Below are positions 2,163 through 29,518 of a stretch of 29,518 nucleotides of DNA, in pieces; position 1 is the first letter of the stretch, and each line of letters begins with the position of its first letter. The notes beneath the pieces were generated by a model. The model saw only the letters and a program-made list of their open reading frames with translations, did no database searches and was not told the DNA's origin. Location of the stretch: positions 3,522-33,039 of IMG/VR virus record IMGVR_UViG_3300029309_000170; one strand, written 5' to 3'. A program made the position numbers and the translations under genes. This DNA is from a virus.

Positions 2163-3307
2163 TATATAGCATTAACTACTTTAAAATAAAAATTATCATC
2201 TAATACTAGTGTAGAACCATTTATGTTAGTTTTAACACATATTTTATAATATCTTTCCGGTTCTAGTCCATTCATATAAACATCAAAATAATTACCTTTA
2301 TCATCAGCACTTAACTGTGTAAATGTAGTGTCGTAATCTACAACATATTCGTTAGTATCCAAATCTTTTATAGCATAAAATGAAGCAGTTGGTAAATAAC
2401 GTGTTTGTACAAATAAAGAACCTGTTGAAAATGTTCTAGTTGGATATTTTGGTGCTACATTAAATCTAAATCTATTTACACTTTCAGGGGTAAAAAATCC
2501 TGGATTTTCTGCTAGGGAAGATATTATATTAGTTGTATCTACTATACTAGCTGTAGCGGATCCTGTTAGTATTGTTTGAAAATCTCTCCATTTAAATTCT
2601 AATTGTGGTGGATATATAGTATTAGTATCAACACTGTAAAATTGCATTACGGGTTGAATTTGTATACTGGTGTTAAATTCTACACTATCTTGCCATTTAG
2701 TAATAAAACCATTATTTACAAATGATCCACTATACCATTTTTCAACTACTACTTTAGCATTTACTTTTAAATCCTTTGTTGATCTAGTATCAAATGATTG
2801 TGTAACTACATATTGAGTAGCATCCGAACTACTATAGTACCATGCACCCCCACCAGCAGGGGCAAAATCTGCATCAAATGAACTTGTAACAAAATTATTA
2901 GTAGCATCTGTTCCACTAGAGGACCAAGCTATTGATCCCTTAAAAAAAGGTGAATTCCAACAACACCCATCTGTAGTTTGGGGTACATCTAAGTATGTTC
3001 CAGTACCATTATTCCAACTTTGAGCTAATGGATGTACTTCTAAATCTGTTGCTTCTACAATACCTTGTGCTGTCGCTATATATGCTCTAAAATCTACATC
3101 CCACTGAGCTCCATTAATCTTGTTATTAATAACATCTTCAATTTCTTCTTGTACAAATTCAGTTAAAAACCTAGCTACTTGGGGATTAGTGTCTACAGCT
3201 ATATTTAAATTAGATATGTCTGTTATAGGGTCTATCCCTGTATTCATATCGGGGTAAAATGAATATAGTGTAGCGTCTTTATGTGGGAATATTTTATATA
3301 TAGCCAT
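2162..3307 (-). CDS. DNRLRE-like virion protein (possible host-recognition or decoration)
   Basis: 381 residues. The N-terminus (AIYKIFPHKDATLYSFYPDM, then NTGID) and the later pattern LAQSWNNGTGTYLDVPQTTDGCCWNSP-like region at about 92-120 resemble DNRLRE-type domains, where a conserved 'DATLYS' opening is followed by 'W..GTGT...DG..W'. These beta-rich modules occur in surface and carbohydrate-active proteins and in some phage virion proteins. The rest is beta-rich and high in Ser, Thr, Tyr and Asn; no signal peptide. One-base overlap with the next gene and two-base gap to the 100-residue gene put it in the tail operon. Likely a tail or baseplate accessory protein, perhaps contacting host glycans; the family call is by eye and moderate. 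Confidence 0.7.
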   Translation of the reverse strand: MAIYKIFPHKDATLYSFYPDMNTGIDPITDISNLNIAVDTNPQVARFLTEFVQEEIEDVINNKINGAQWDVDFRAYIATAQGIVEATDLEVHPLAQSWNNGTGTYLDVPQTTDGCCWNSPFFKGSIAWSSSGTDATNNFVTSSFDADFAPAGGGAWYYSSSDATQYVVTQSFDTRSTKDLKVNAKVVVEKWYSGSFVNNGFITKWQDSVEFNTSIQIQPVMQFYSVDTNTIYPPQLEFKWRDFQTILTGSATASIVDTTNIISSLAENPGFFTPESVNRFRFNVAPKYPTRTFSTGSLFVQTRYLPTASFYAIKDLDTNEYVVDYDTTFTQLSADDKGNYFDVYMNGLEPERYYKICVKTNINGSTLVLDDNFYFKVVNAI

Positions 3308-3622: not shown

Positions 3623-5470
3623 TTATAATGGTACTACTCTACCCTTAATATCATCATTAGGGTATTTTATTTCAAATATTGAAGGATCTAAACTTGGATA
3701 TATTACTTGGTTTTGGGTAGCTCCCTCTATATCGTAAGCATATTGGGAATATCCTTGTGTTATTCCTACTTTATTAGATATAGTAACATTTTTTACTGTT
3801 TGTATTCCAGATACCTGATCTAATCTAATAAATAAATCTCTTAATAAAATAGGTTCATTAAGTTGCCATTTATCTCTATCAAAATATTCTTGTAAAGATT
3901 CAATACAAGATAATATAACATCATTATTATTAAAATTAGGTAATACTACTATTTCAAAATCTATACCTATGTTTATAATATATGCATCTTTTATCTCGAT
4001 ACTGTCTCCTATCATTTTAAATTGTGATAGATATGTTCTTAAATTTTTCTTTAAGGTACTAGTAGCTGTAGAAAATTGGCCCAAACTATTTTGAGATAAA
4101 ATATACATACATAAAGTTTCAGCTGTAGATACTTGATTATCTAATGTTGGTTTTTCTATATAAACCTTAGATACTATACCAAAATCTGAGGGCATACTTA
4201 ATGCTCTAATCATATAATCATTTAAAGTAACTGTTCTTTGCTGAGATGCTATTTGCATTAAGGTATTTTGTCTTATAATTTCATCTGTATCTCCTGATTT
4301 TCCTCCATCAGCCGCTAGGGGATTATTTGAAACTATAGTTCCAAAAATATAGTTAGCTGTTGTACTATTTAAATTTGAATTATTAAAAGTAATATTTGAT
4401 TTATCAATAGAAGTTAAATCTCCACTAGGCACATTAGCTCCAACTCCTCCACCTGTTAAATATCTTACTGTTAAAGTAGTATTAGAAGGTGCTATACCAT
4501 AAGTGTTTGTAAATAAAAAGTTTGTAGGCGAATATGCTGTTGAAAGTTTATCTTGCTCAAATGGCAAACCTATGCCTACATTATTTGGGTTAGGTGTTAT
4601 TAATTCATCAGTATCAGCCGGATTACCCGCTCCAAATTGAATTTGTAGATTAGTTTCTGAGGTAAATCTTGTAGTAAAACGTCTTTGTACTTTTTTTAGT
4701 TGTAATAAATATGGTACTTCACCCGCATTTAATACATTATTAGGATCATTTGGGTTTGTATTTTTTATACTATTAAATACCATTTCTTGACCTAAATAAT
4801 CTACTTCACTATAGGTATTACCTTCTGAGTCTGTAATATCTAATATTCCTATTATATTAGAATCTAAAAGATTTATTGTTGGGAACTGTTCTGGAGCCCC
4901 AAATGTAAAAGAAGTAGATTTAATATTAGCTGATATTGCTTGTCTTTCTTTTTCTAATAGATAATATGTAGGTGTTGTACCTGCTACACTATATATTGAA
5001 ATGTTTGTAGGGTCTAAAGAACTTGAAACTGAAAAATCACACTGGTCTTGTATTAAAAATGAAAGAGTAGGTGATATGTTAGATGGTATTATTGTATTTG
5101 TTCCCACATTTATAGTATAACTAAAATCAGGATCACCATTAGCTAAAGCGGGAATTTGTTGAAATATTTTTATAGTAGCTTGAGCAGCACCAGTTGCCTT
5201 GGGTTTATAACCAAACATATAAGCTAACTCATATAAATTATTTGTTTGTTTAGCTAATGTAGTAAATGTTTCTGAAATTTGATTATCTAAATAAAATGAC
5301 ATTACATCACTTACATAAGCTGCTTGTTCCATAAACATCATACCTGGTGATGCAGGTGAAAAGTCATTAAAAGTATTTGGAAAATAAGTTTCAGAAAACT
5401 CTATTAATTTAGCTCTAATGTCCTGAAAATCCCTATTTGTGTATGATATGTTTCTATCTGGTGTAGCCAT
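3623..5470 (-). CDS. Baseplate wedge protein, T4 gp6-like (baseplate J family)
   Basis: 615 residues, close to the size of T4 gp6. The N-terminus has the typical opening of this family: YTNRDFQDIRAKLIEF followed by SPASPGMMFMEQAAYVSD at residues 38-55 and a helical stretch. The middle is beta-rich (for example RYLTGGGVGANVPSG), and the segment IIRQNTLMQIASQQRTVT resembles the conserved 'baseplate J' region (A..R.RAVT..DY). In T4, gp6 dimers form the continuous ring of the baseplate wedge with gp7 and gp53, driving the hexagon-to-star change at contraction. Its stop and start overlap the gp25-like gene by one base, the classical gp25-gp6 order. This gene is the strongest evidence for a contractile-tailed phage. 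Confidence 0.9.
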   Translation of the reverse strand: MATPDRNISYTNRDFQDIRAKLIEFSETYFPNTFNDFSPASPGMMFMEQAAYVSDVMSFYLDNQISETFTTLAKQTNNLYELAYMFGYKPKATGAAQATIKIFQQIPALANGDPDFSYTINVGTNTIIPSNISPTLSFLIQDQCDFSVSSSLDPTNISIYSVAGTTPTYYLLEKERQAISANIKSTSFTFGAPEQFPTINLLDSNIIGILDITDSEGNTYSEVDYLGQEMVFNSIKNTNPNDPNNVLNAGEVPYLLQLKKVQRRFTTRFTSETNLQIQFGAGNPADTDELITPNPNNVGIGLPFEQDKLSTAYSPTNFLFTNTYGIAPSNTTLTVRYLTGGGVGANVPSGDLTSIDKSNITFNNSNLNSTTANYIFGTIVSNNPLAADGGKSGDTDEIIRQNTLMQIASQQRTVTLNDYMIRALSMPSDFGIVSKVYIEKPTLDNQVSTAETLCMYILSQNSLGQFSTATSTLKKNLRTYLSQFKMIGDSIEIKDAYIINIGIDFEIVVLPNFNNNDVILSCIESLQEYFDRDKWQLNEPILLRDLFIRLDQVSGIQTVKNVTISNKVGITQGYSQYAYDIEGATQNQVIYPSLDPSIFEIKYPNDDIKGRVVPL

Positions 5471-5877
5471 TATATAAAGGATAATTCTAATGTATCATTA
5501 ATGTTAGTATTTTTTATACTGTAATCTAATGATACTATTATAGTATTTAAATCTTCTTGTTTTAAAACTTCTAAGTTTTGTATATTAATAGATGGAAAAA
5601 ATATACCTAATTGATCTTGAATGCCTTCTTGTAAAAATTCCAAATTATCATCTGATATTTGTTCAAAAATAAATGCTCTTAAACCTCCCCCAAAAGTTGG
5701 GTTTAATGGTCTTTCTCCCGGATTGGTTAAGAAAAAATTAATTAAATTATTTTTAATTGCTTCTTTTGTTGTATAATTAGGTCTAAAGCAACTGGGGGCA
5801 TTAAAAGGAATATCTACCCCTACAGCAACACTTTTATCAAAGTCAATTGGAAATATTTGTTGTGCATTAAAAGCCAT
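5470..5877 (-). CDS. Baseplate wedge protein, gp25-like
   Basis: 135 residues, the usual length for the gp25/IraD-like family. It shows the core motif NPGERPLNPTFGGGLR at residues 52-67, in which the 'PGER...P.FG.GL' signature is diagnostic, after an N-terminal stretch (FDKSVAVG...NLINFFL). In T4 and in contractile injection systems, gp25 sits at the inner baseplate where it joins gp6 wedges to the tail sheath and sets off sheath polymerisation. One-base overlaps with the genes on both sides show translational coupling with gp6. Confidence 0.92.
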   Translation of the reverse strand: MAFNAQQIFPIDFDKSVAVGVDIPFNAPSCFRPNYTTKEAIKNNLINFFLTNPGERPLNPTFGGGLRAFIFEQISDDNLEFLQEGIQDQLGIFFPSINIQNLEVLKQEDLNTIIVSLDYSIKNTNINDTLELSFI

Positions 5878-6251
5878 TATTTACTTGTCATTAATCCCAT
5901 TATTTGATTCATATTAACTTCTCCAGCGGGTAAGCTTCCATTAGGTGAAGTAGTGTCTATTGAACCTTTTGGGTCAAAGGGTTTATTCCCCCACCCTTTA
6001 GCATGTGTACTATCTAAGTTTATAGCAGTTTCACCTATAATATCCATATAAGCTTGTCTTTGTTCTTTTAAAGATTTTTTAGGTGTTTGTGTTACAGGTG
6101 CTGGTGTAGTTGATGTAATATTTTCTTGTACTGGTTGTGTGACTACAGCCTTAGGTGCTTTAACTGCTTCTAGTAAAACTTCCTTTAGCTCTTCTTGTAT
6201 AGCCTCTCTAACAGCTTCTTTTATTATTTTTTTAAGTGCTTCGGTTTTCAT
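5877..6251 (-). CDS. Small structural-operon protein with amphipathic N-terminal helix
   Basis: 124 residues, not recognised. The first about 30 residues (KTEALKKIIKEAVREAIQEE) form an uninterrupted charged, amphipathic helix. They are followed by an Ala/Thr/Pro/Val-rich linker and a C-terminal part (EQRQAYMDIIGETAINLDST) ending in MNQIMGLMTSK. Helix-linker-tail layout is common in small phage assembly or scaffold proteins. It begins after one of the few gaps in the operon (6252-6288) and its last base overlaps the gp25 start. No catalytic motif is visible. Confidence 0.7.
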   Translation of the reverse strand: MKTEALKKIIKEAVREAIQEELKEVLLEAVKAPKAVVTQPVQENITSTTPAPVTQTPKKSLKEQRQAYMDIIGETAINLDSTHAKGWGNKPFDPKGSIDTTSPNGSLPAGEVNMNQIMGLMTSK

Positions 6252-6288
6252 ATATTGTTTTTTATAAATATTAAATTAATTAAGGGGT

Positions 6289-7587
6289 TTAATAGCCTCC
6301 ACCTCCTCCACCACCACTTCCAATAGATCCTCCTGTACCTGTTGAAACTGGGGTAGATGTAGTTGAAGTAGTTGTGTTATTATTATCTTCGTTAAATACT
6401 GGAGGTCCTACACCATCAACAGTTAAATTATTAGATTGTATATAGTATACTAATTCATCTATTAATATTTGATCATTTGATGAAAATGAGGGCTCCCCCC
6501 TGAGCATAATTATACCTGAAGGGTTTCTAGCTATTGCCTGTCTTCTTTTTAATCCTCCTATTACAGCACTATCAACGGGTACTACACTCATTTCAAAACC
6601 ATTAACATTAGTAACTACAGGTGAAAGTTGTTGGGATTGTTCTTGGGTAGCTTCTAATAAATCTTGGGATAACTGTTCTTGAGGTAATTGTCCTTCTATA
6701 GCGCATCCTTGAACTAAACTATCTAATAGTTTTAAATAATCCAATATTATTTGAAGAATTTGAATTAAAATGGTTAGTACTATTAATGTAGCTGAGGATA
6801 TTAATTTATATTTTTTTAGTTCTTCTTCTATCCTATCTCTTACTTTTCCCACGGGTTTTGAAACATCAGGAGCTCCAAAACCAGCAATTGGAGCTAAGTT
6901 ATAAGCTGAACCTAAAGTTTTTACTACTATTTCTGCTATTGTAATAGTGGTATTTAAAGTTTCAACTCCAACTTTAACTGTTTTTAAAAATTTATAGATA
7001 TTATTTAATGTTTTTGTTAATTTGTTTTTCTTTTTTATTAAAGCATTTAATTCATCTAAATTAGCGGGACATGTAGCATTCATATCTCCAAATTTTTTAC
7101 CTAAAGCATCTTTAGCTTTAGATATCCCAAAAGCGGCTATTAAGGTTAAAACCTGGGGGAGTAAAACAGTTTTAATTTGTTTTACTAGATTATTCATGGC
7201 CTGTTGTTTAGCCATTTCAAAATCCATTTTTGATAATTGTAAGGATCTAATTTGATCTATAGAAAGAGGTAATTCTTGTGATATGGCCTCTTCTAAATCC
7301 AATTTAGAGGGTTTAAGTTTTATAATTCCTAATCCCCCATTATTTTTTAATCGTTTTTTAAGATTAAAAGGATTTATTATTTTTTGACCATAATCAGTAG
7401 CAAAAATATTAACTATAAATATTTGTCCTGGGGTATATTTTCCTATAAGAGTAAAATCACCATTTTCCTGAGATATAGTACTTTCTCCTAAGGCAGATGT
7501 TATTATAGCTTCTGATATGGGTTGATTATCGTTATCTACAATTTTACCTATTAAAACATAATCTACAGGGGGATTTACATCAGCCAT
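6289..7587 (-). CDS. Virion protein with carboxypeptidase-regulatory-like domain and hydrophobic helices
   Basis: 432 residues. Residues about 10-70 (VLIGKIVDNDNQPISEAIIT, then STISQENGDFTL) have the pattern of a carboxypeptidase regulatory-like/Ig-like beta-sandwich: 'G.V.D....P...A.V......T...G.F.L'. The middle is alpha-helical with hydrophobic stretches at about 141-156 (VLLPQVLTLIAAFGIS) and about 263-285 (SSATLIVLTILIQILQIILD) that look capable of entering a membrane. The C-terminus is a low-complexity Thr/Gly tail ending GGGGGGGY. No signal peptide. It sits between the hub and gp25 genes, the usual place for a hub or tape-related component. A membrane-penetrating tail protein is one possibility. 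Confidence 0.75.
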   Translation of the reverse strand: MADVNPPVDYVLIGKIVDNDNQPISEAIITSALGESTISQENGDFTLIGKYTPGQIFIVNIFATDYGQKIINPFNLKKRLKNNGGLGIIKLKPSKLDLEEAISQELPLSIDQIRSLQLSKMDFEMAKQQAMNNLVKQIKTVLLPQVLTLIAAFGISKAKDALGKKFGDMNATCPANLDELNALIKKKNKLTKTLNNIYKFLKTVKVGVETLNTTITIAEIVVKTLGSAYNLAPIAGFGAPDVSKPVGKVRDRIEEELKKYKLISSATLIVLTILIQILQIILDYLKLLDSLVQGCAIEGQLPQEQLSQDLLEATQEQSQQLSPVVTNVNGFEMSVVPVDSAVIGGLKRRQAIARNPSGIIMLRGEPSFSSNDQILIDELVYYIQSNNLTVDGVGPPVFNEDNNNTTTSTTSTPVSTGTGGSIGSGGGGGGGY

Positions 7588-11846: not shown

Positions 11847-11877
11847 TTGGATATGACTAAAAGGTTACGTATATTTA
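11847..11877 (+). promoter_or_regulatory. Promoter of the lectin gene
   Basis: TTGG (11847-11850), 19-base spacer ending in ACG, TATATTTA (11870-11877). It has the same geometry and the same CG before the -7 box as the minus-strand promoters, but is the only copy found on the plus strand. Confidence 0.5.
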
Positions 11878-11906
11878 TAGATATGATGATAAATAAAACA
11901 TTGATT

Positions 11907-12542
11907 ATGGATACTTTATATAAATTATCATCGATTAAAATTATCCTGTTTTTATTTTTTACATTTATTGGATTAACACTAATAAGTCAAAATGAGACAA
12001 CTAAGTCTGAATTTTTAAGTTTTTACAGGTACAATCCAGAAAGATTGACTTGGGACGAACATAAAAAACGTGCTACTGAGATGGGTGGGGATCTTGCATG
12101 CATTACCAATACTGATGAGAATGAACAAGTAAGAAGAATTGCTGGTGGAGAGATCGTATGGATTGGAGGGATACGTAAAGGTTGTGGTAATGGGCCTGGA
12201 TCTGATTATTGGAAATGGTCCAATGGTAAAGAGTGGTCTTACACTAACTGGAGAGTAGGAGAACCCAACAACAGTCCAAGTAGTCATGACCCATACTCAG
12301 AATATGATGAAAACCGTGTGATGATGTGGGAGAATGGAGAATGGAATGATGCGTCCTCATTACATGAACTTTCCGCAATATATGAGATACCCTTGAATCG
12401 CTCTGTAGAGTATTATGATAATGATATCAAAGAAAATTTGGATTATACTAAAAGAAAAAGAAATTCATTTAGAATGATATTAGGTTCTATTCTTTCTACC
12501 GGAATCATTTTAATAATTAATTCTAGTCAAAGAGTAAAATAA
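11907..12542 (+). CDS. Membrane-anchored C-type lectin domain protein
   Basis: 211 residues from the chosen ATG; upstream in-frame ATG and TTG codons exist (11847-11885), but this start puts the hydrophobic signal (KIILFLFFTFIGLTLIS, cleavage near S27|Q28) in the right place. Residues about 40-162 form a C-type lectin fold: LTWDEHKKRATEMGGDLACI, WIGGIRKG, YWKWSNGKEWSYTNW, the EPN sugar-specificity motif (119-121), the WND calcium motif (146-148) and a closing IYEI. EPN usually goes with mannose-type sugars. A C-terminal membrane segment (about 188-205) follows a basic stretch. Only two cysteines (C65, C93) are present in the domain, so the canonical disulfide pair is absent. It is the only plus-strand gene, flanked by oppositely oriented genes, and has fewer A/T-ending codons than its neighbours. 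It is probably an acquired 'moron'. Confidence 0.85.
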   Translation: MDTLYKLSSIKIILFLFFTFIGLTLISQNETTKSEFLSFYRYNPERLTWDEHKKRATEMGGDLACITNTDENEQVRRIAGGEIVWIGGIRKGCGNGPGSDYWKWSNGKEWSYTNWRVGEPNNSPSSHDPYSEYDENRVMMWENGEWNDASSLHELSAIYEIPLNRSVEYYDNDIKENLDYTKRKRNSFRMILGSILSTGIILIINSSQRVK

Positions 12543-22287: not shown

Positions 22288-22503
22288 TTATTTAACTTTT
22301 ATTGGTCTGTGATTAAAACGAGCATTATGGTACATTGCATTGTATACTCTTATTTTAGTTGGTTTATCACTATGACTGTGATGAGGTTGAACATGTGACT
22401 GTTTAGTATTTAAAATTTTATGTGGGTTTTTAGTCAAATTTTTTTCAACTCTACACGATAAACATAACAAAAGGAATAAAATAATACAAACTATCTTATT
22501 CAT
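22288..22503 (-). CDS. Small lipoprotein overlapping the glucosaminidase gene
   Basis: 71 residues from the ATG (an upstream TTG would add three). Lipoprotein signal MNKIVCIILFLLLCLSC with lipobox C-L-S-C, Cys17 lipidated, then a short basic mature part rich in His, Asn and Lys (VQPHHSHSDKPTKI), about 55 residues. The start overlaps the last codons of the endolysin-like gene by eight bases. A short lipoprotein coupled to an endolysin gene is the usual picture of an outer-membrane spanin, but the Pro-rich middle typical of Rz1 is not evident. Confidence 0.7.
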   Translation of the reverse strand: MNKIVCIILFLLLCLSCRVEKNLTKNPHKILNTKQSHVQPHHSHSDKPTKIRVYNAMYHNARFNHRPIKVK

Positions 22504-23068
22504 TTTTATCAAATTTATTTTTTAAGTTTTCTCTTTTAATTATTCTTTGCAATGCTTGAGGATAATAATTTGCCTCAGCATATTGTTTATTTAATAATAA
22601 ATATAATTTCTTTTCTGATTTACATTTATTAGCGTATGTTGAATACCATAAAGCATAATCTGTTAATGATTCTTTCCAATTATCATAATACGCGTGTCCA
22701 TGTTGAGTACCTTTAGCTAAGTTAAGCCTAACTCTAGCTTCTTTCATCCCAAATAGATTATTATTTTCTTTAAATATTTTAGATTCATAATTACCTGTTT
22801 CTAAAATAGCTTGGGCTAATACAATATGGGGGTATTTAAAATTTAATTTACTAATTTCTTCAATTAAATTTTCTTCACTAAATTTATTTTCTTCTTCTAT
22901 TAATAATAATTTTTCAGTAGCAGTAATATATTCTGTTTTTACTGGGGGTTGTGAAATACCTAATAAAGAAAATATTATTAAAAATAAAATTATAATCCTC
23001 ACTAATCCTCCTCTCACATTAAAACTTTTATATTTTAGCGTTTTTGAGTCAAAAGTGTATAGTTTCAT
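22496..23068 (-). CDS. Membrane-anchored glucosaminidase (endolysin candidate)
   Basis: 190 residues from the ATG of MKLYTFDSK; the frame continues 11 residues upstream but that part overlaps the previous gene. Short cytoplasmic stretch, a membrane segment (GGLVRIIILFLIIFSLLGIS, about 20-39), and a glucosaminidase fold: HIVLAQAILETGNYESKIFK (the catalytic Glu is likely in 'AILETG'), NNLFGMKEARVR, GHAYYDNWKESLTDYALWYS. This is the PF01832-type endo-beta-N-acetylglucosaminidase core that cuts glycan chains in peptidoglycan. The signal-anchor layout means it reaches the periplasm by Sec, without holin-made holes, as SAR endolysins do. Could also be used in entry; the context of small membrane proteins and a lipoprotein favours lysis. 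Confidence 0.85.
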   Translation of the reverse strand: MKLYTFDSKTLKYKSFNVRGGLVRIIILFLIIFSLLGISQPPVKTEYITATEKLLLIEEENKFSEENLIEEISKLNFKYPHIVLAQAILETGNYESKIFKENNNLFGMKEARVRLNLAKGTQHGHAYYDNWKESLTDYALWYSTYANKCKSEKKLYLLLNKQYAEANYYPQALQRIIKRENLKNKFDKNE

Positions 23069-23090
23069 ATATTTGTTTTGGTTAGTAATA

Positions 23091-23429
23091 TTAAATAACA
23101 AAGCTTAAGCTAATTGTAAATAAACCAACCCCAATTAATAAATTATGAGGATTTAAGGGTATTGAACCTTTTACTTGTTTAGAATTAAATTGGTGCTCTT
23201 TATGCATAGTAAGTTGATAAACTCCAATACTAGTAAAAGTTACACCTGATATAAATATTATAGGTTTATTATTAATATGTTTTTTTGCTATAAATTTATT
23301 TTTAGGTTTTTGGTTAAATGGTTCTAAATTTAAATTAATTTTAAATAAATTTATTTCCTGATTTAACATATTTTGACTACTAACTGTAGTAAAACTTATT
23401 AATAATAATATAAAAATTATTTTTTTCAT
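23091..23429 (-). CDS. Signal-peptide/two-TM membrane protein, unknown
   Basis: 112 residues: signal peptide MKKIIFILLLISFTTVSSQ, a basic periplasmic part (PFNQKPKNKFIAKKHINNKP), then hydrophobic stretches at about 56-75 (PIIFISGVTFTSIGVYQLTM) and 95-112 (LLIGVGLFTISLSFVI). The layout suggests a membrane-embedded protein on the periplasmic side. Four-base overlap (ATGA) with the upstream 39-residue gene. Not recognised. Confidence 0.68.
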   Translation of the reverse strand: MKKIIFILLLISFTTVSSQNMLNQEINLFKINLNLEPFNQKPKNKFIAKKHINNKPIIFISGVTFTSIGVYQLTMHKEHQFNSKQVKGSIPLNPHNLLIGVGLFTISLSFVI

Positions 23430-23545
23430 TTTATCATTTCAATTACTATAACTAAACTAACTGCTATTAATCCTACAGTAGCCATTACTATAGCCCAAAA
23501 ATTGGAACCATCATTCATTTTTTGTAAATCATATTTTTTTTCCAT
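23426..23545 (-). CDS. 39-residue membrane peptide
   Basis: 39 residues, MEKKYDLQKMNDGSNFWAIV then MATVGLIAVSLVIVIEMIK, a charged N-terminus and one membrane segment. The ATGA overlap with the following gene and the three-base gap from the cytochrome gene support that it is translated in the cytochrome operon. The function is unknown. Confidence 0.55.
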   Translation of the reverse strand: MEKKYDLQKMNDGSNFWAIVMATVGLIAVSLVIVIEMIK

Positions 23546-23548
23546 ATC

Positions 23549-24235
23549 TTATTTTTTAAATGATTTTTTAATTGTATCTTTAATATCATTTTCAAAAGTT
23601 TTCATTTTAATTTTAACTCTTTTATTTACTTCCTCTTCAATAAATCCGTCAAACTCTCTATTTAACTCATCAAATGATAAATCTATTTTTTTAAGTAAAT
23701 ATGTTTCTGTGGATTTACTTTTTTTATAAGCATTAATCATAGATTTTAAAACATATTGTAATATGCCTATTGTTACTAAAAGTATAAAGACAATTACACA
23801 TAATAAAACTATTTCTAATGCTCCTAAACCTTTTGATTGTACTACTACTGGTTGGTTGCTTGCTACAGGAGTTGGTTTGTTTGCTTCTGCTTCGGCTTTT
23901 TTATCATTATACTCAGCCAAATAAGTAACTATATTACTAATAGGTCCATCACCTAAATATTCATATGCAGCCATTGCCATACCATTATACTCTTTAAATA
24001 TTTCATTGGCATGTTTATCTCCAGAAGCTCTTAAATCATTATTGTTTTTGATCCAAGCTGTAGTCCATTCTTTGCCTTGATTTTTTACTACATTTTTTAA
24101 TGCAGGACCCACAACTCTTTTTTCCATGTTATGACAGGAAGCACAATTATTTCTAAATAACTGTTTACCCTCTTCATAGTCTTGTGCATTATAACCTATG
24201 GACAAAACTAAAAATAAAATTAATATTTTTTTCAT
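23549..24235 (-). CDS. Membrane-anchored cytochrome c
   Basis: 228 residues. Signal peptide MKKILILFLVLSIGYNA|Q; a class I cytochrome c domain with heme motif CASCH (31-35), VGPALKNV (42-49), the tryptophan-helix WTTAWIKNNNDLRASGD and a likely axial Met88 in NGMAMAAYEYLGD; a Pro/Val-rich linker; a membrane segment at about 139-163; and a cytoplasmic charged helix to the end. The order signal, heme, TM resembles the N-terminal monoheme part of the Bacteroidota alternative complex III subunit ActA, without its multi-heme part. The protein would carry electrons in the periplasm of the host. Cytochrome c genes are rare in phages. Operon with small membrane proteins on both sides; the ATG overlaps the previous stop. 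Confidence 0.88.
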   Translation of the reverse strand: MKKILILFLVLSIGYNAQDYEEGKQLFRNNCASCHNMEKRVVGPALKNVVKNQGKEWTTAWIKNNNDLRASGDKHANEIFKEYNGMAMAAYEYLGDGPISNIVTYLAEYNDKKAEAEANKPTPVASNQPVVVQSKGLGALEIVLLCVIVFILLVTIGILQYVLKSMINAYKKSKSTETYLLKKIDLSFDELNREFDGFIEEEVNKRVKIKMKTFENDIKDTIKKSFKK

Positions 24236-24366
24236 TTATTGCTACTTATTATCGAATAAATACCTAATAAAATTATTCCAATTATACCATATAAAAGCAT
24301 ATCCGGAATTTCAACTATGTAGTCAGGTCCTCTATATAGTTCAATCATAAAATCCTTACTACTCAT
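24232..24366 (-). CDS. 44-residue membrane protein next to cytochrome c
   Basis: 44 residues, MSSKDFMIELYRGPDYIVEI then PDMLLYGIIGIILLGIYSII and SSNK. A polar N-terminus and one membrane segment. Overlaps the cytochrome ATG by four bases and the upstream gene by eight. Tight coupling to the cytochrome suggests an accessory subunit, but no family is recognised. Confidence 0.6.
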   Translation of the reverse strand: MSSKDFMIELYRGPDYIVEIPDMLLYGIIGIILLGIYSIISSNK

Positions 24367-24535
24367 TAATAACTTTATTTTTCTTTTTGCTTATTTTAAA
24401 TATTCTTTTCTTTTTATGTTGAACTTTTCCTAGTTCTTTTTCCTGTATTTTATGTTGTGTGTTAATCATTTTAACTAAAAAATACATATAGGTCACAAAT
24501 ATAGCAAGTCCAACTCCAAATATTAATGCACTCAT
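24359..24535 (-). CDS. 58-residue membrane protein with basic tail
   Basis: 58 residues, MSALIFGVGLAIFVTYMYFL then a charged, lysine-rich tail (KVQHKKKRIFKISKKKNKVI). One membrane segment with the positive tail presumably cytoplasmic. Such single-segment, short basic-tailed proteins recall small subunits of heme-copper oxidases (CcoQ/CcoS type), only by form. ATGA overlap with the upstream gene. Confidence 0.6.
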   Translation of the reverse strand: MSALIFGVGLAIFVTYMYFLVKMINTQHKIQEKELGKVQHKKKRIFKISKKKNKVINE

Positions 24536-24870
24536 CTTTTCATTGTGTTAAAAAAATTTGCTAATCCTAAAATTGATGGTACCCAAATACCAACAAATAC
24601 TCCTTCATCTTTATAACCAGTAAACCATAATGTTACTGAAAATAAAAAACTAATAAAGGCTAAAATAATTGGATAGTATTTTTCTAATTGTTTCATAACT
24701 TTATTTTTTTGATATTCATATTTAACTGTTCTACCTTGATTTCCCATACCATCCATATCAACATTCTCATATGCTGATGGTGATGGTAAACCCGAATAAT
24801 GACAATAATTATCCCCAGGTTCATAAGACTCTATTGTCTCAAAATAATACTTTTTATCTTTCGCTTTCAT
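24532..24870 (-). CDS. Two-segment membrane protein in the cytochrome operon
   Basis: 112 residues. A polar N-terminal part of about 65 residues (YYFETIESYEPGDNYCHYSG, then NVDMDGMGNQGRTVKYEYQK) and two membrane segments at about 66-84 (YYPIILAFISFLFSVTLWFT) and 91-107 (VFVGIWVPSILGLANFF). No signal peptide, so the N-terminal part is probably cytoplasmic. Follows the 56-residue gene by three bases. Not recognised. Confidence 0.7.
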   Translation of the reverse strand: MKAKDKKYYFETIESYEPGDNYCHYSGLPSPSAYENVDMDGMGNQGRTVKYEYQKNKVMKQLEKYYPIILAFISFLFSVTLWFTGYKDEGVFVGIWVPSILGLANFFNTMKR

Positions 24871-25518: not shown

Positions 25519-25845
25519 TTAAAAAGATTCCATTACTGTTTCATCTACTAAATCTTGTACATCTTCTAATTTAGCTTCTATTTGCATCATAATGTTTGCT
25601 TGGTAACGTTTTACTTCTTCACCATGATTAAAAATAATAATTGTTGGTACTACTATTATTTTATGTTTTGATTGTGCTTCTGTATTTGTGGCTATATCTA
25701 CTTGGCTTACTTTACAATCTGTTAATTCATCTAGCCAATTTACTCCATTTGCAGCATTCCAGTTAGCATTGAATTGTACTACTTTAATTTGTGATATTGC
25801 ATTTAAAGATAAAAATAAAATAACTAATGTTAGTAAATTTTTCAT
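25519..25845 (-). CDS. Secreted thioredoxin-fold protein without CxxC
   Basis: 108 residues. Signal peptide MKNLLTLVILFLSLNAIS|Q, then a thioredoxin pattern: strand KVVQFNANW, the active-site position WNAAN (29-33) where thioredoxins have WCGPC, strand CKVSQVDIATN, and VVPTIIIFNHGEEV with the cis-Pro P67. Both catalytic cysteines are replaced; only one Cys (C44) remains in the mature part. It is predicted to be periplasmic. It cannot do disulfide exchange in the usual way, so a binding or chaperone role is likely. Six bases after the TM/coiled-coil gene, in the same transcript as the barrel and T9SS genes. Confidence 0.78.
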   Translation of the reverse strand: MKNLLTLVILFLSLNAISQIKVVQFNANWNAANGVNWLDELTDCKVSQVDIATNTEAQSKHKIIVVPTIIIFNHGEEVKRYQANIMMQIEAKLEDVQDLVDETVMESF

Positions 25846-26154: not shown

Positions 26155-27237
26155 TTAGAAAATTACGTAGTTTAATCCAACACTAAAATCGTGCCATTGT
26201 CTATTCCAATATTTATTATATTTACCTTCCATAAATACACCAAGATGTTTATTAAATCTATATCCTAATATAAAACCTGCACCAAAATCAACCCATGTTT
26301 GTTGGTCTGTAAATTTATAATATGAATATTCTCCTGTTTCTAAATGAAAAGGCATTACACTTAACCATGAATGTAACCAAAAAGTTTTAGTATAATGGTA
26401 AAAATCATATCCTATTACTAAAGAATAATTCCATTGTTGGGGTATTTCCTGCTTTTTTTCTCTAACATAATCAGATAATACTTGTGGAATAATATTTTCT
26501 TCCCAAATTATACTATTAGTAGCTACTACTTCGCCTTCTGGGTTTAAGTAATTAGTTTCACCATTAGGTAAAAAATCTATATTATATCCCTCTTGTAGTG
26601 CTAATTCTGTATAATGTAAACTTCCATTTGGTAATATAAATTCTTGTAAGGGATTATAACCATATGGTTCGGATATTCTTTGAGCTATACCAGCATTTAG
26701 TGAAAATTTTCTTCCAAATTTATGTCTATATCTCTGGGATGCTTCAAAATATTTTATATCAGCAAAACCCTGTTGCATGTATTCTACTTTAACTATCCAT
26801 TTATCAGCTACATACCTTAAAAAATGTTGTTGATCAATAAATGTGTTGCCAAAACGTCTTTTATAATCGGCTTCAAATAAAAATTCAAACCCAGATACTT
26901 TACCTATTGTAGCTGCATCTGCATATGAATGTTCCTCACCATTATAAAATACAGCTTGTCTATTTTCATATCCAAATCTAGCTATTTTTCTAACTCCTAA
27001 TACTAGAGAATAATCAAATGGTGTTTCTTCGGTATTGGTTACTAATCTGCCAGTATTAACTGAATATCTATCTATATCAGCAATACTATTATTACCATTA
27101 AAAGCACCATAAAAAGTAGCAAATTTAATTGCTTTTTTAAATTTTTTATCAAAATCTTCAAATGGTTTCCATTCTTTTTTTTCTTGGGAAAAAAGTAATG
27201 TTGGAATTAAAAATAGTATATATATTATTCTTTTCAT
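26155..27237 (-). CDS. Predicted outer-membrane beta-barrel protein
   Basis: 360 residues. Signal peptide MKRIIYILFLIPTLLFS|Q, then alternating hydrophobic/polar strands full of Tyr, Phe and Trp (for example FDYSLVLGVRKIARFGYENR, WNYSLVIGYDFYHYTKTFWL, FMEGKYNKYWNRQWHDFSVG) and a terminal strand LNYVIF ending in Phe, the BAM recognition signal of outer-membrane barrels. Strand number looks like 12-16, by eye. No plug domain or TonB box seen. One-base overlap with the T9SS-cargo gene, so they are translated together. A phage-made outer-membrane protein could alter the host receptor, exclude other phages or act as a partner for the secreted protein. The family is not recognised. Confidence 0.75.
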   Translation of the reverse strand: MKRIIYILFLIPTLLFSQEKKEWKPFEDFDKKFKKAIKFATFYGAFNGNNSIADIDRYSVNTGRLVTNTEETPFDYSLVLGVRKIARFGYENRQAVFYNGEEHSYADAATIGKVSGFEFLFEADYKRRFGNTFIDQQHFLRYVADKWIVKVEYMQQGFADIKYFEASQRYRHKFGRKFSLNAGIAQRISEPYGYNPLQEFILPNGSLHYTELALQEGYNIDFLPNGETNYLNPEGEVVATNSIIWEENIIPQVLSDYVREKKQEIPQQWNYSLVIGYDFYHYTKTFWLHSWLSVMPFHLETGEYSYYKFTDQQTWVDFGAGFILGYRFNKHLGVFMEGKYNKYWNRQWHDFSVGLNYVIF

Positions 27238-29518
27238 TATTGTTTAATTACTTTTCTAATATAAGTTAATTCACCGACTTTTACTTTTATAAAATAAATT
27301 CCATTATTTAAATGGCTTATATTAATAACACTATCGCTAGTTTCATTAATAATTATCTGACCTGAGGTTGAATAAAGACTTACAAATACATTTTTAAATT
27401 TTGAACTTACTACATTTAATTCTCCAGATGTAGGATTTGGATAAATAGCAACTCCTCCATCAGAAATTAAATTTTCAATTCCAACCCAATTACTATTTTG
27501 ATCACAATAATCATAAGTATTTTGGCAACTAGCATCCCAACCTACACTACAACAATAGGGATCTATACTAATTACCCAGGCATAACATTGATCATTTAAC
27601 CAATAGGGATTACCTGGTCCTGTAATACAACCTGCATCATATAAACAAGCCGTTGAATCAGAAATATTAGCTAGTGGATCATAATTATATGCATTTGGGT
27701 CTGTACAACCTGGAATAGGTAAAATACAAGTTCCATTATCAGTATTAGCATTTGGATCATAATTTAAGGCAGTAGAATCTGTACAACCATAAATAATGGG
27801 CACACAAGAGCCATTATCAGTATTTGCAGTTGAATCATAATTAAAAGCGGTAGGATCAGTACAACCAAAAATATAAGGTATACAACTTCCATTGTCTGTA
27901 TTTGCAGTTGAATCATAATTAAACATAGTAGGATCAGTACAACCATAAATAAATGGTATACAACTACCTGCTAATTCCACATTTGCTAGGGGATCATAAT
28001 TAAATGATGTACTATCCATGCAACCAAAAATTGCTGGGGTATAACAATAATCTATGCTCCAATGATCAACTAAAAGATAATCAGCATTCCAAAATTCTAC
28101 ATATCCCTGATTATCACATTCTGGGTGGTAAAAACAAGAACCGTCATCTACATTAGCATCTGGATCATAAGAGTCTGGGTGTGCTAAAGAATCAGTACAA
28201 CCATAAATTTTAGGGATACATAAATCTCCACAACTAGGATATGCTACATATTTTTCATAAAAAGGATCTTCAAATGGTTGTAATGCACCTTGCCCATTAT
28301 TAGCAAATGGATTGGTTCCTTCAGATAACAATGTATCTCCATATGAATTAATTAATGTAAATGAATTATGCCAGGTTTGAAATTCAACAGCCTGAGGTGG
28401 TTGTTGAGGTCCTGCAACTTCAAAATAATAAACTTCAACTGGGTAGTTTGGTGATAATTGTATGTTGAAAGTTTGATTATAGGGTCCAGGTCCCATTGTA
28501 TATGTCCATAAGTTACTATTTTGGTGAACTCCTATATATGAGTTACCCCAACCATCTCCTGCATCATCCTCTATTACTAAAGTATAATCACATACAGAAG
28601 GGGTTTGCATCATTGTGGCAGATGGATTATAGTTGAATGCTGAAGTATCAGTACAACCAAATATATGAGGTGTTAAACAAGATCCATCATCAGTATTTGC
28701 TAATGGGTTAAATTCTTGGTATGCTGGATCTGTACATCCTAATATAGGAGTTATACCTCCACATGAATTTCCAAATAATGGTCCTGAATACCATACATTT
28801 CCAAAGTTCCCATTTGGTACCCCTGGTTGTAATGACCATATAGTATCACCATCACAATCATATATAACTACATTTCCATCAATATTTCCTCCAGATGTAG
28901 AACCACCTAAACCATCTCCCCATGTATCATTAATAATAAATTCAACTCCTAAAGTATCAATACAAACTGTATAAGTATAAGTTTGCCCTACGTCCTGAAA
29001 ATTATATTCTCCTACTGATGCTTGTGCTGGAAAACCTCCATCTGATAATGAAACTAAAGTCCAAGATGTTTCGCCTGGCCAATTATCTAATGTTATTTCA
29101 ATTGTTATTTCATGATCAATAGGATCACAATCTCCACTACTATTACAAGATCCATCATCTTCAGTTGCCCAAGGATTATAAGCTATTTGAGAAGGATCAG
29201 TACAACCATAAATGCATGGTGTTGGGGTAAATGCTATAGTATCGGATAAGGTACCATTAACAAATTCTAGTACTATAAAATGTTCTACTGACCAATTTGG
29301 GGGCATTTGCCCATTACCTGCGGGAGCTGCAAAATTATTATATCCATTTGAAGAAGGCCATAAACCAGGAAAAGTAATGTGATATCCTTCTTCATTACCA
29401 TAATGAACTTTTACTACATTGCAACCAGGAGATAAAGTATCAGTCCACCATTCAAATACTATTGCAGACTGGTTACCCCAGCACATTTGCCAAGCACTAT
29501 CTTGCAATATACCATTAC
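27237..29518 (-). CDS. Large GCTDP-repeat protein with T9SS sorting domain (5' end beyond window)
   Basis: The frame stays open to the window edge (codons continue past an internal TTG at 29507), so the N-terminus is missing; about 759 residues are visible. It carries many Cys-rich repeats of the type GCTDPTAFNYDSTANTDNGS-C, five of them in tandem near the C-terminus and others scattered earlier, plus beta-rich domains between them (for example IEDDAGDGWGNSYIG, TLDNWPGETSWTLVSLSDGG). The last about 80 residues form a type IX secretion sorting domain: VAIYPNPTSGELNVV, then LYSTSGQIIIN, and NNGIYFIKVKVGELTYIRKV-IKQ. Such proteins pass through the host T9SS and end on or outside the cell surface. 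Phage origin follows from the linked genes. Confidence 0.88.
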   Translation of the reverse strand, partial: NGILQDSAWQMCWGNQSAIVFEWWTDTLSPGCNVVKVHYGNEEGYHITFPGLWPSSNGYNNFAAPAGNGQMPPNWSVEHFIVLEFVNGTLSDTIAFTPTPCIYGCTDPSQIAYNPWATEDDGSCNSSGDCDPIDHEITIEITLDNWPGETSWTLVSLSDGGFPAQASVGEYNFQDVGQTYTYTVCIDTLGVEFIINDTWGDGLGGSTSGGNIDGNVVIYDCDGDTIWSLQPGVPNGNFGNVWYSGPLFGNSCGGITPILGCTDPAYQEFNPLANTDDGSCLTPHIFGCTDTSAFNYNPSATMMQTPSVCDYTLVIEDDAGDGWGNSYIGVHQNSNLWTYTMGPGPYNQTFNIQLSPNYPVEVYYFEVAGPQQPPQAVEFQTWHNSFTLINSYGDTLLSEGTNPFANNGQGALQPFEDPFYEKYVAYPSCGDLCIPKIYGCTDSLAHPDSYDPDANVDDGSCFYHPECDNQGYVEFWNADYLLVDHWSIDYCYTPAIFGCMDSTSFNYDPLANVELAGSCIPFIYGCTDPTMFNYDSTANTDNGSCIPYIFGCTDPTAFNYDSTANTDNGSCVPIIYGCTDSTALNYDPNANTDNGTCILPIPGCTDPNAYNYDPLANISDSTACLYDAGCITGPGNPYWLNDQCYAWVISIDPYCCSVGWDASCQNTYDYCDQNSNWVGIENLISDGGVAIYPNPTSGELNVVSSKFKNVFVSLYSTSGQIIINETSDSVINISHLNNGIYFIKVKVGELTYIRKVIKQ
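27633..28025. repeat. Tandem 78-bp repeats in the T9SS-cargo gene
   Basis: Five tandem units of 26 codons each (one has 27) encode GCTDP...NYD...A...DNGSC plus a five-residue linker. Unit starts on the minus strand are at about 28025, 27944, 27866, 27788 and 27710; the spacing is 81, 78, 78, 78 bases. The two units starting at 27944 and 27866 are nearly identical in protein sequence, suggesting recent duplication. Confidence 0.85.

Follow-up and report, generated by a model that had tools for sequence, protein, structure and literature searches.

Does a cytochrome c gene found on a viral contig belong to the phage, and if it does, to which part of a respiratory chain is its product related? 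The question is raised by a locus in the window (as we term the whole stretch of DNA analysed, 29,518 nucleotides), which comprises bases 3522-33039 of a virus record spanning 33,039 bases.

The cytochrome gene and its product

On the minus strand of the window, at 23549..24235, lies a gene for a protein of 228 amino acids, its ATG at 24235 and its stop ending at 23549. The product comprises a hydrophobic, Sec-type signal peptide (residues 1-18, MKKILILFLVLSIGYNAQ), a cytochrome c domain (residues 19-112) that holds C31-A-S-C-H35 and Met88, a linker (residues 113-137), a single predicted transmembrane helix (residues about 141-163; mean Kyte-Doolittle 2.7) and a tail (residues 164-228) of ~60-65 amino acids beyond the helix, with 17 K/R and 12 D/E, whose cytoplasmic location, like the anchoring itself, is predicted. 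The original prediction, that this reading frame encodes a membrane-anchored cytochrome c, held: signal peptide, CASCH motif, Met, transmembrane helix and tail are all present.

The 228-aa protein matches the Pfam family PF00034 (Cytochrom_C) at 43.5 bits (E 8e-11; gathering cut-off 21.3) and also exceeds the cut-off for Cytochrome_CBB3 (3e-8). In NCBIfam the matches, to assorted cytochromes, all stayed below the cut-off, and there is weak profile similarity to the SoxX, CcoP and c6 families. The CxxCH heme-attachment motif (codons 31-35, C-A-S-C-H; 24131..24145, minus strand) is invariant in the six phage proteins found, described below, and in all aligned ActA proteins. Of the two candidate methionines, M86 and M88, the second is the conserved one, being invariant in the six phage proteins and in 29 ActA. 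With its profile match, a CxxCH towards the N-terminal end of the domain and a distal Met, the protein is a class I cytochrome c; covalent heme attachment and coordination by the Met are inferred.

An AlphaFold2 model, made with an input alignment of phage and ActA domains (mean pLDDT 82.6), shows a cytochrome c domain that is helical throughout, then a long helix (138-183) in which the transmembrane segment lies, then a second one (188-227). Its best fold matches are cytochromes c, headed by that of Rhodothermus marinus, 3cp5 (E 5e-5, target TM-score 0.72), a soluble monoheme protein that shares the fold of the model but lacks transmembrane helix and tail. A viral predicted-structure library contained no match to the model at E 0.001.

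Kinship with the ActA arm

Among solved structures the top match by sequence was the N-terminal domain of Flavobacterium johnsoniae ActA (6btm_A, residues 52-192; 81 bits, E 8.7e-22), far ahead of the runner-up, 2l4d, at 47 bits. This match and the Pfam value of 8e-11 rule out a chance CxxCH. When 84,980 species genomes were scanned, the best 80 cellular relatives proved to be nearly all ActA N-domains. Most ActA loci among the 80 encode six CxxCH and two transmembrane helices and adjoin an ActB-sized reading frame of ~1020-1040 codons; most other loci are cut at contig ends, start-shifted (a product of the simple ORF call applied to the 80 loci) or carry two N-domains, and one exception, L026, is a soluble-type monoheme protein. 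A phylum-wide profile search of Bacteroidota was again headed by frames of ActA size, 420-490 aa. The phage domain is nearer by sequence to the ActA arm than to other cytochromes. Tandem N-terminal monoheme domains, two per ActA protein, were observed at L013, L049 and L059.

The part of ActA that is matched is a membrane-anchored mobile domain bearing the sixth heme, a proposed electron shuttle to cytochrome aa3 (PMC8552683); it was not resolved by cryo-EM and its role in alternative complex III (ACIII) is unsettled (PMC8552683). The phage protein shares with this arm (6btm chain A) a signal peptide, one CxxCH, a Met at the same column, a linker and one transmembrane helix, and a W/W/N/GD/E/N pattern is common to both; identity to aligned ActA arms is about 27-36%. 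It differs in ending after the first transmembrane helix, with its own tail of ~60 aa, and in lacking the second helix, the five-heme domain and an adjoining ActB. It is thus not a full ActA: it has one CxxCH where flavobacterial ActA has six, one transmembrane helix, and phage neighbours instead of actB. The domain order had been predicted to resemble the N-terminal part of ActA without the multi-heme part, and profile, structure, genome and tree searches all upheld this. Neither of two results that would have refuted it was obtained: ActA heads the matches, which are not confined to unrelated CxxCH proteins, and heme motif and Met ligand have not been lost in close relatives.

Stand-alone, anchored monoheme cytochromes of Bacteroidota (L105, L106, L107, L108) resemble the phage protein in having a signal, one cytochrome c domain and a C-terminal transmembrane helix; unlike it, they have a short cytoplasmic tail or none, and the tree places them apart from the phage clade. 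Such additional relatives of the ActA arm are carried by Bacteroidota genomes, one of which (G270) has two, L105 and L108, besides its own ActA.

In domain trees the six phage proteins are united in a single clade (support 99/87 and 96/88) with a long branch. The clade lies among ActA and stand-alone domains, at a position that varies with the rows kept. The long branch speaks against recent transfer from any sampled host. Descent from ActA and descent from a stand-alone anchored monoheme cytochrome are both compatible with the tree, and either is possible.

Recurrence and setting in phages

Scans of viral contigs revealed five further carriers of the cytochrome, at 38-89% identity. The closest, L001 (89%), has genes for T4-like clamp loader subunits and a dUTPase beside it; in L006-L008 (43-46%) the neighbours are gp32-like, UvsX-like and exonuclease genes, and in L009 (38%) genes for tail sheath, tube and baseplate hub. 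PHROG and Pfam matches confirmed the neighbours in L001, L006 and L009, and those in L007 and L008 are close homologues of the L006 set. Its presence beside phage genes on five more contigs makes the cytochrome a genuine recurrent phage gene, and the differing neighbours indicate that it changes position yet stays intact.

The ratio dN/dS for the window copy against L001 is 0.07 overall, 0.047 for the cytochrome domain and 0.05 for the tail, and L006-L008 pairs give 0.04-0.08: the cytochrome domain is under strong purifying selection. Each of the six phage proteins keeps the tail, and some of its residues, ST..YL.KK among them, are invariant; the codons for residues 167-228 (23552..23737, minus strand) have no counterpart seen in cellular relatives. 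Among the matches listed from 395 Bacteroidota genomes, none ran past position 183 or so of the phage profile, which has 227 positions; within the limits of that search the tail is therefore specific to phages. A search with the tail only returned just L006, a known carrier, from the viral contigs, and nothing from Pfam. Contamination by host DNA is ruled out by the phage neighbours within the contigs and by the phage-only tail.

The window itself encodes baseplate wedge proteins, which establish its phage nature; the large one shares 45% identity with its counterpart in the cultured Flavobacterium phage immuto, and gene order nearby resembles, as compared by eye, the order annotated in that phage. 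The hosts of its nearest cultured and sequenced relatives belong to Flavobacterium, a genus with ActA in its genomes. Immutovirus, the closest sequenced cultured phage, is without the cytochrome in a search that recovers the L009 copy as positive control; only six copies having been found and Immutovirus lacking the gene, phages of this type can do without the cytochrome. Its gene is of cellular type, flanked by phage genes that include PHROG hallmarks, recurrent and under selection, and on these counts qualifies as an auxiliary metabolic gene; an effect on host metabolism is inferred.

A collection of phage genomes (50,697 records) gave a single weak match, to another kind of cytochrome, in the huge phage LR756502 (L005, 5857-6306). 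This too is a phage-encoded monoheme cytochrome c, unannotated, but it is unlike that of the window: identity is 32% over 91 residues only, the signal is of lipoprotein type, and there is neither transmembrane anchor nor tail. The 642-kb genome (LR756502.1) thus holds a second, different phage cytochrome, with a ClpP-like protein, recognized by inspection, nearby.

In the window the gene stands in a run of small membrane-protein genes on the minus strand. Successive members encode a 112-aa membrane protein (24532..24870), the first of the overlapping run; a single-transmembrane protein of 58 aa (24359..24535) in the same overlapping operon; one of 44 aa (24232..24366), whose gene overlaps the cytochrome start by 4 bases (ATGA) and whose product is a possible partner; the cytochrome; and a single-transmembrane protein of 39 aa directly downstream (23426..23545). 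Beyond this run come another 112-aa protein and a membrane-anchored, endolysin-like glucosaminidase (22496..23101, minus strand; PF01832, 8.5e-17). The pair formed by the 44-aa gene and the cytochrome recurs in L001, with the 44-aa gene at 3081-3215. A search with the first 112-aa protein yielded relatives in four related phages without the cytochrome (L117-L120). One of them, L117, has the first two genes of the run, its homologue of the 58-aa protein being 58% identical, then a different 56-aa gene and an Fpg-like glycosylase gene in place of the pair, and the cytochrome was not found elsewhere on its 85-kb contig; the 44-aa/cytochrome pair accordingly looks like an accessory insertion. Proximity to the glucosaminidase is not kept in other phages, which makes that enzyme a local neighbour and not a conserved partner. 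An operon of small membrane proteins and a glucosaminidase had been predicted and is present, but the lysis context is particular to this contig; a lysis module as the general context can be rejected, the five other contigs having replication, recombination or tail genes beside the cytochrome.

Several other features of these regions were recorded. In L117 the small membrane proteins are preceded immediately by a NifU-like iron-sulfur scaffold domain (4760-4990; 2e-21), and the adjoining glycosylase, Fpg/Nei-like, lies at 5465-6334. The window also encodes a signal-peptide protein of thioredoxin fold without a CxxC active site (25519-25845, minus strand; PF00085, 5e-6); a C-type lectin-domain protein with signal or transmembrane segments (11847-12542), among the few long plus-strand genes; and a large secreted-type protein with GCTDP..NYDP repeats (27237-29507, minus strand) and a C-terminal Por_Secre_tail (2.3e-12), a type IX secretion sorting domain by which the product is apparently addressed to the host T9SS, an inference from sequence alone. 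A stem of 9-11 bp (GGGAATAGA/TCTATTCCC) closes the intergenic segment 25383-25470, inside which there is a further hairpin; an Rfam search found no match to the segment, and its fold z-score is about -1.8.

Proposed function and rival readings

The reading we prefer, with a probability of roughly 0.6, is that the phage protein is a free-standing, phage-adapted ActA shuttle arm serving as an electron carrier in the link between ACIII and oxidase; function and partner are inferred. The protein would be exported by Sec and matured by the host cytochrome c machinery, heme loading being likewise inferred, then tethered to the inner membrane by its one transmembrane helix on a flexible linker, with the helical tail in the cytoplasm. 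During infection it would take up electrons at ACIII, from the ActA hemes or from ActE, and hand them to the host terminal oxidase, either as extra shuttle capacity or in place of the host arm; in this way quinol would still be oxidized, and proton-motive force and the supply of ATP kept up, while the phage replicates. Soluble cytochrome c is reduced by ACIII (PMC5928083). That both heme ligands are strictly conserved speaks for a protein that is redox-active. In the absence of functional or redox data, the redox partners, the direction of electron flow, the benefit to the phage and the role of the tail are all inferred, as are the host ACIII and oxidase, there being no phage-host pair.

The tail, which has no recognized relative, could possibly serve another function. 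A bolder reading, which we regard only as a possibility, makes the phage protein a replacement arm in the ACIII-cytochrome aa3 supercomplex, with the tail and the 44-aa protein linking respiration to a partner, of phage or host, in the cytoplasm; if this were true, the phage would actively switch the route or rate of host respiration.

The main rival, which we consider unlikely, is a dominant-negative or diverting factor: the phage arm would compete with the host ActA arm for docking sites on ACIII or oxidase, and respiration would be slowed or redirected (for example to bd oxidase) or re-infection blocked, rather than respiration sustained. In its favour are the presence of a docking domain without the five-heme wire, the phage-only cytoplasmic tail, and the lethality of ActA or ActE over-expression in F. 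johnsoniae (PMC8552683), which shows that excess parts can harm. Against it, heme motif and Met are invariant and the domain is under strong purifying selection, whereas a pure blocker has no obvious need of a redox-active heme; moreover the toxicity was seen with complete ActA and is of unknown cause. The original prediction had offered both upkeep of respiration and diversion of electrons, and both remain proposals, the sustaining shuttle being favoured.

It is also improbable, though not excluded, that the carrier serves other partners, feeding a cbb3-type oxidase, a cytochrome c peroxidase or a nitrite/N-oxide reductase, or drawing on a donor other than ACIII. Class I cytochromes c are often promiscuous, the weak resemblance to SoxX, CcoP and c6 profiles would fit, and stand-alone cellular monoheme relatives with a transmembrane helix occur in Bacteroidota; the nearest sequence relatives, however, are ActA arms and not those families. 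Much less credible is a lysis or timing factor that senses or alters membrane energisation and so sets the time of lysis: it rests on the overlapping small transmembrane genes and the endolysin-like gene of the window, but in the five other contigs it is clamp-loader, gp32/UvsX or tail-sheath genes that adjoin, not lysis genes. Misassigned host DNA, or a captured fragment in decay, is all but excluded; the gene is clearly of cellular-family descent and the contigs are fragments, yet six viral contigs with adjoining phage genes, dN/dS of 0.04-0.08 and a common tail absent from hosts stand against it.

Viral genes for electron transport are a known kind, mostly from cyanophages. Plastocyanin (petE), PTOX, ferredoxin and NdhI are likewise phage-encoded small electron carriers or electron-transport parts, and cyanophage plastocyanin has been proposed to feed cytochrome c oxidase (PMC10452541); they differ from the phage cytochrome in using other cofactors, in not being tethered cytochromes c, and in belonging to phages of photosynthetic hosts. 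Respiratory-type heme proteins have also been reported in viral data, as SoxD, some copies of which lack heme motifs (PMC8190135), and as cbb3 oxidase in metagenome reads (PMC3474794), but these are of different families. No phage monoheme respiratory cytochrome c or ActA arm was reported in the open-access literature searched. The claim that this would be a new kind of auxiliary gene therefore held only in part: viral respiratory and electron-transport genes were already on record, and the phage ActA-arm cytochrome is probably a new variant of them.

If the preferred reading, that of a sustaining shuttle arm, is correct, viral control of electron flow would extend to aerobic respiration in phages of heterotrophic Bacteroidota. 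In the phage protein nature also offers a copy of the ActA arm detached from the rest of ActA, a ready-made probe for the role of that arm in a genetically tractable host.
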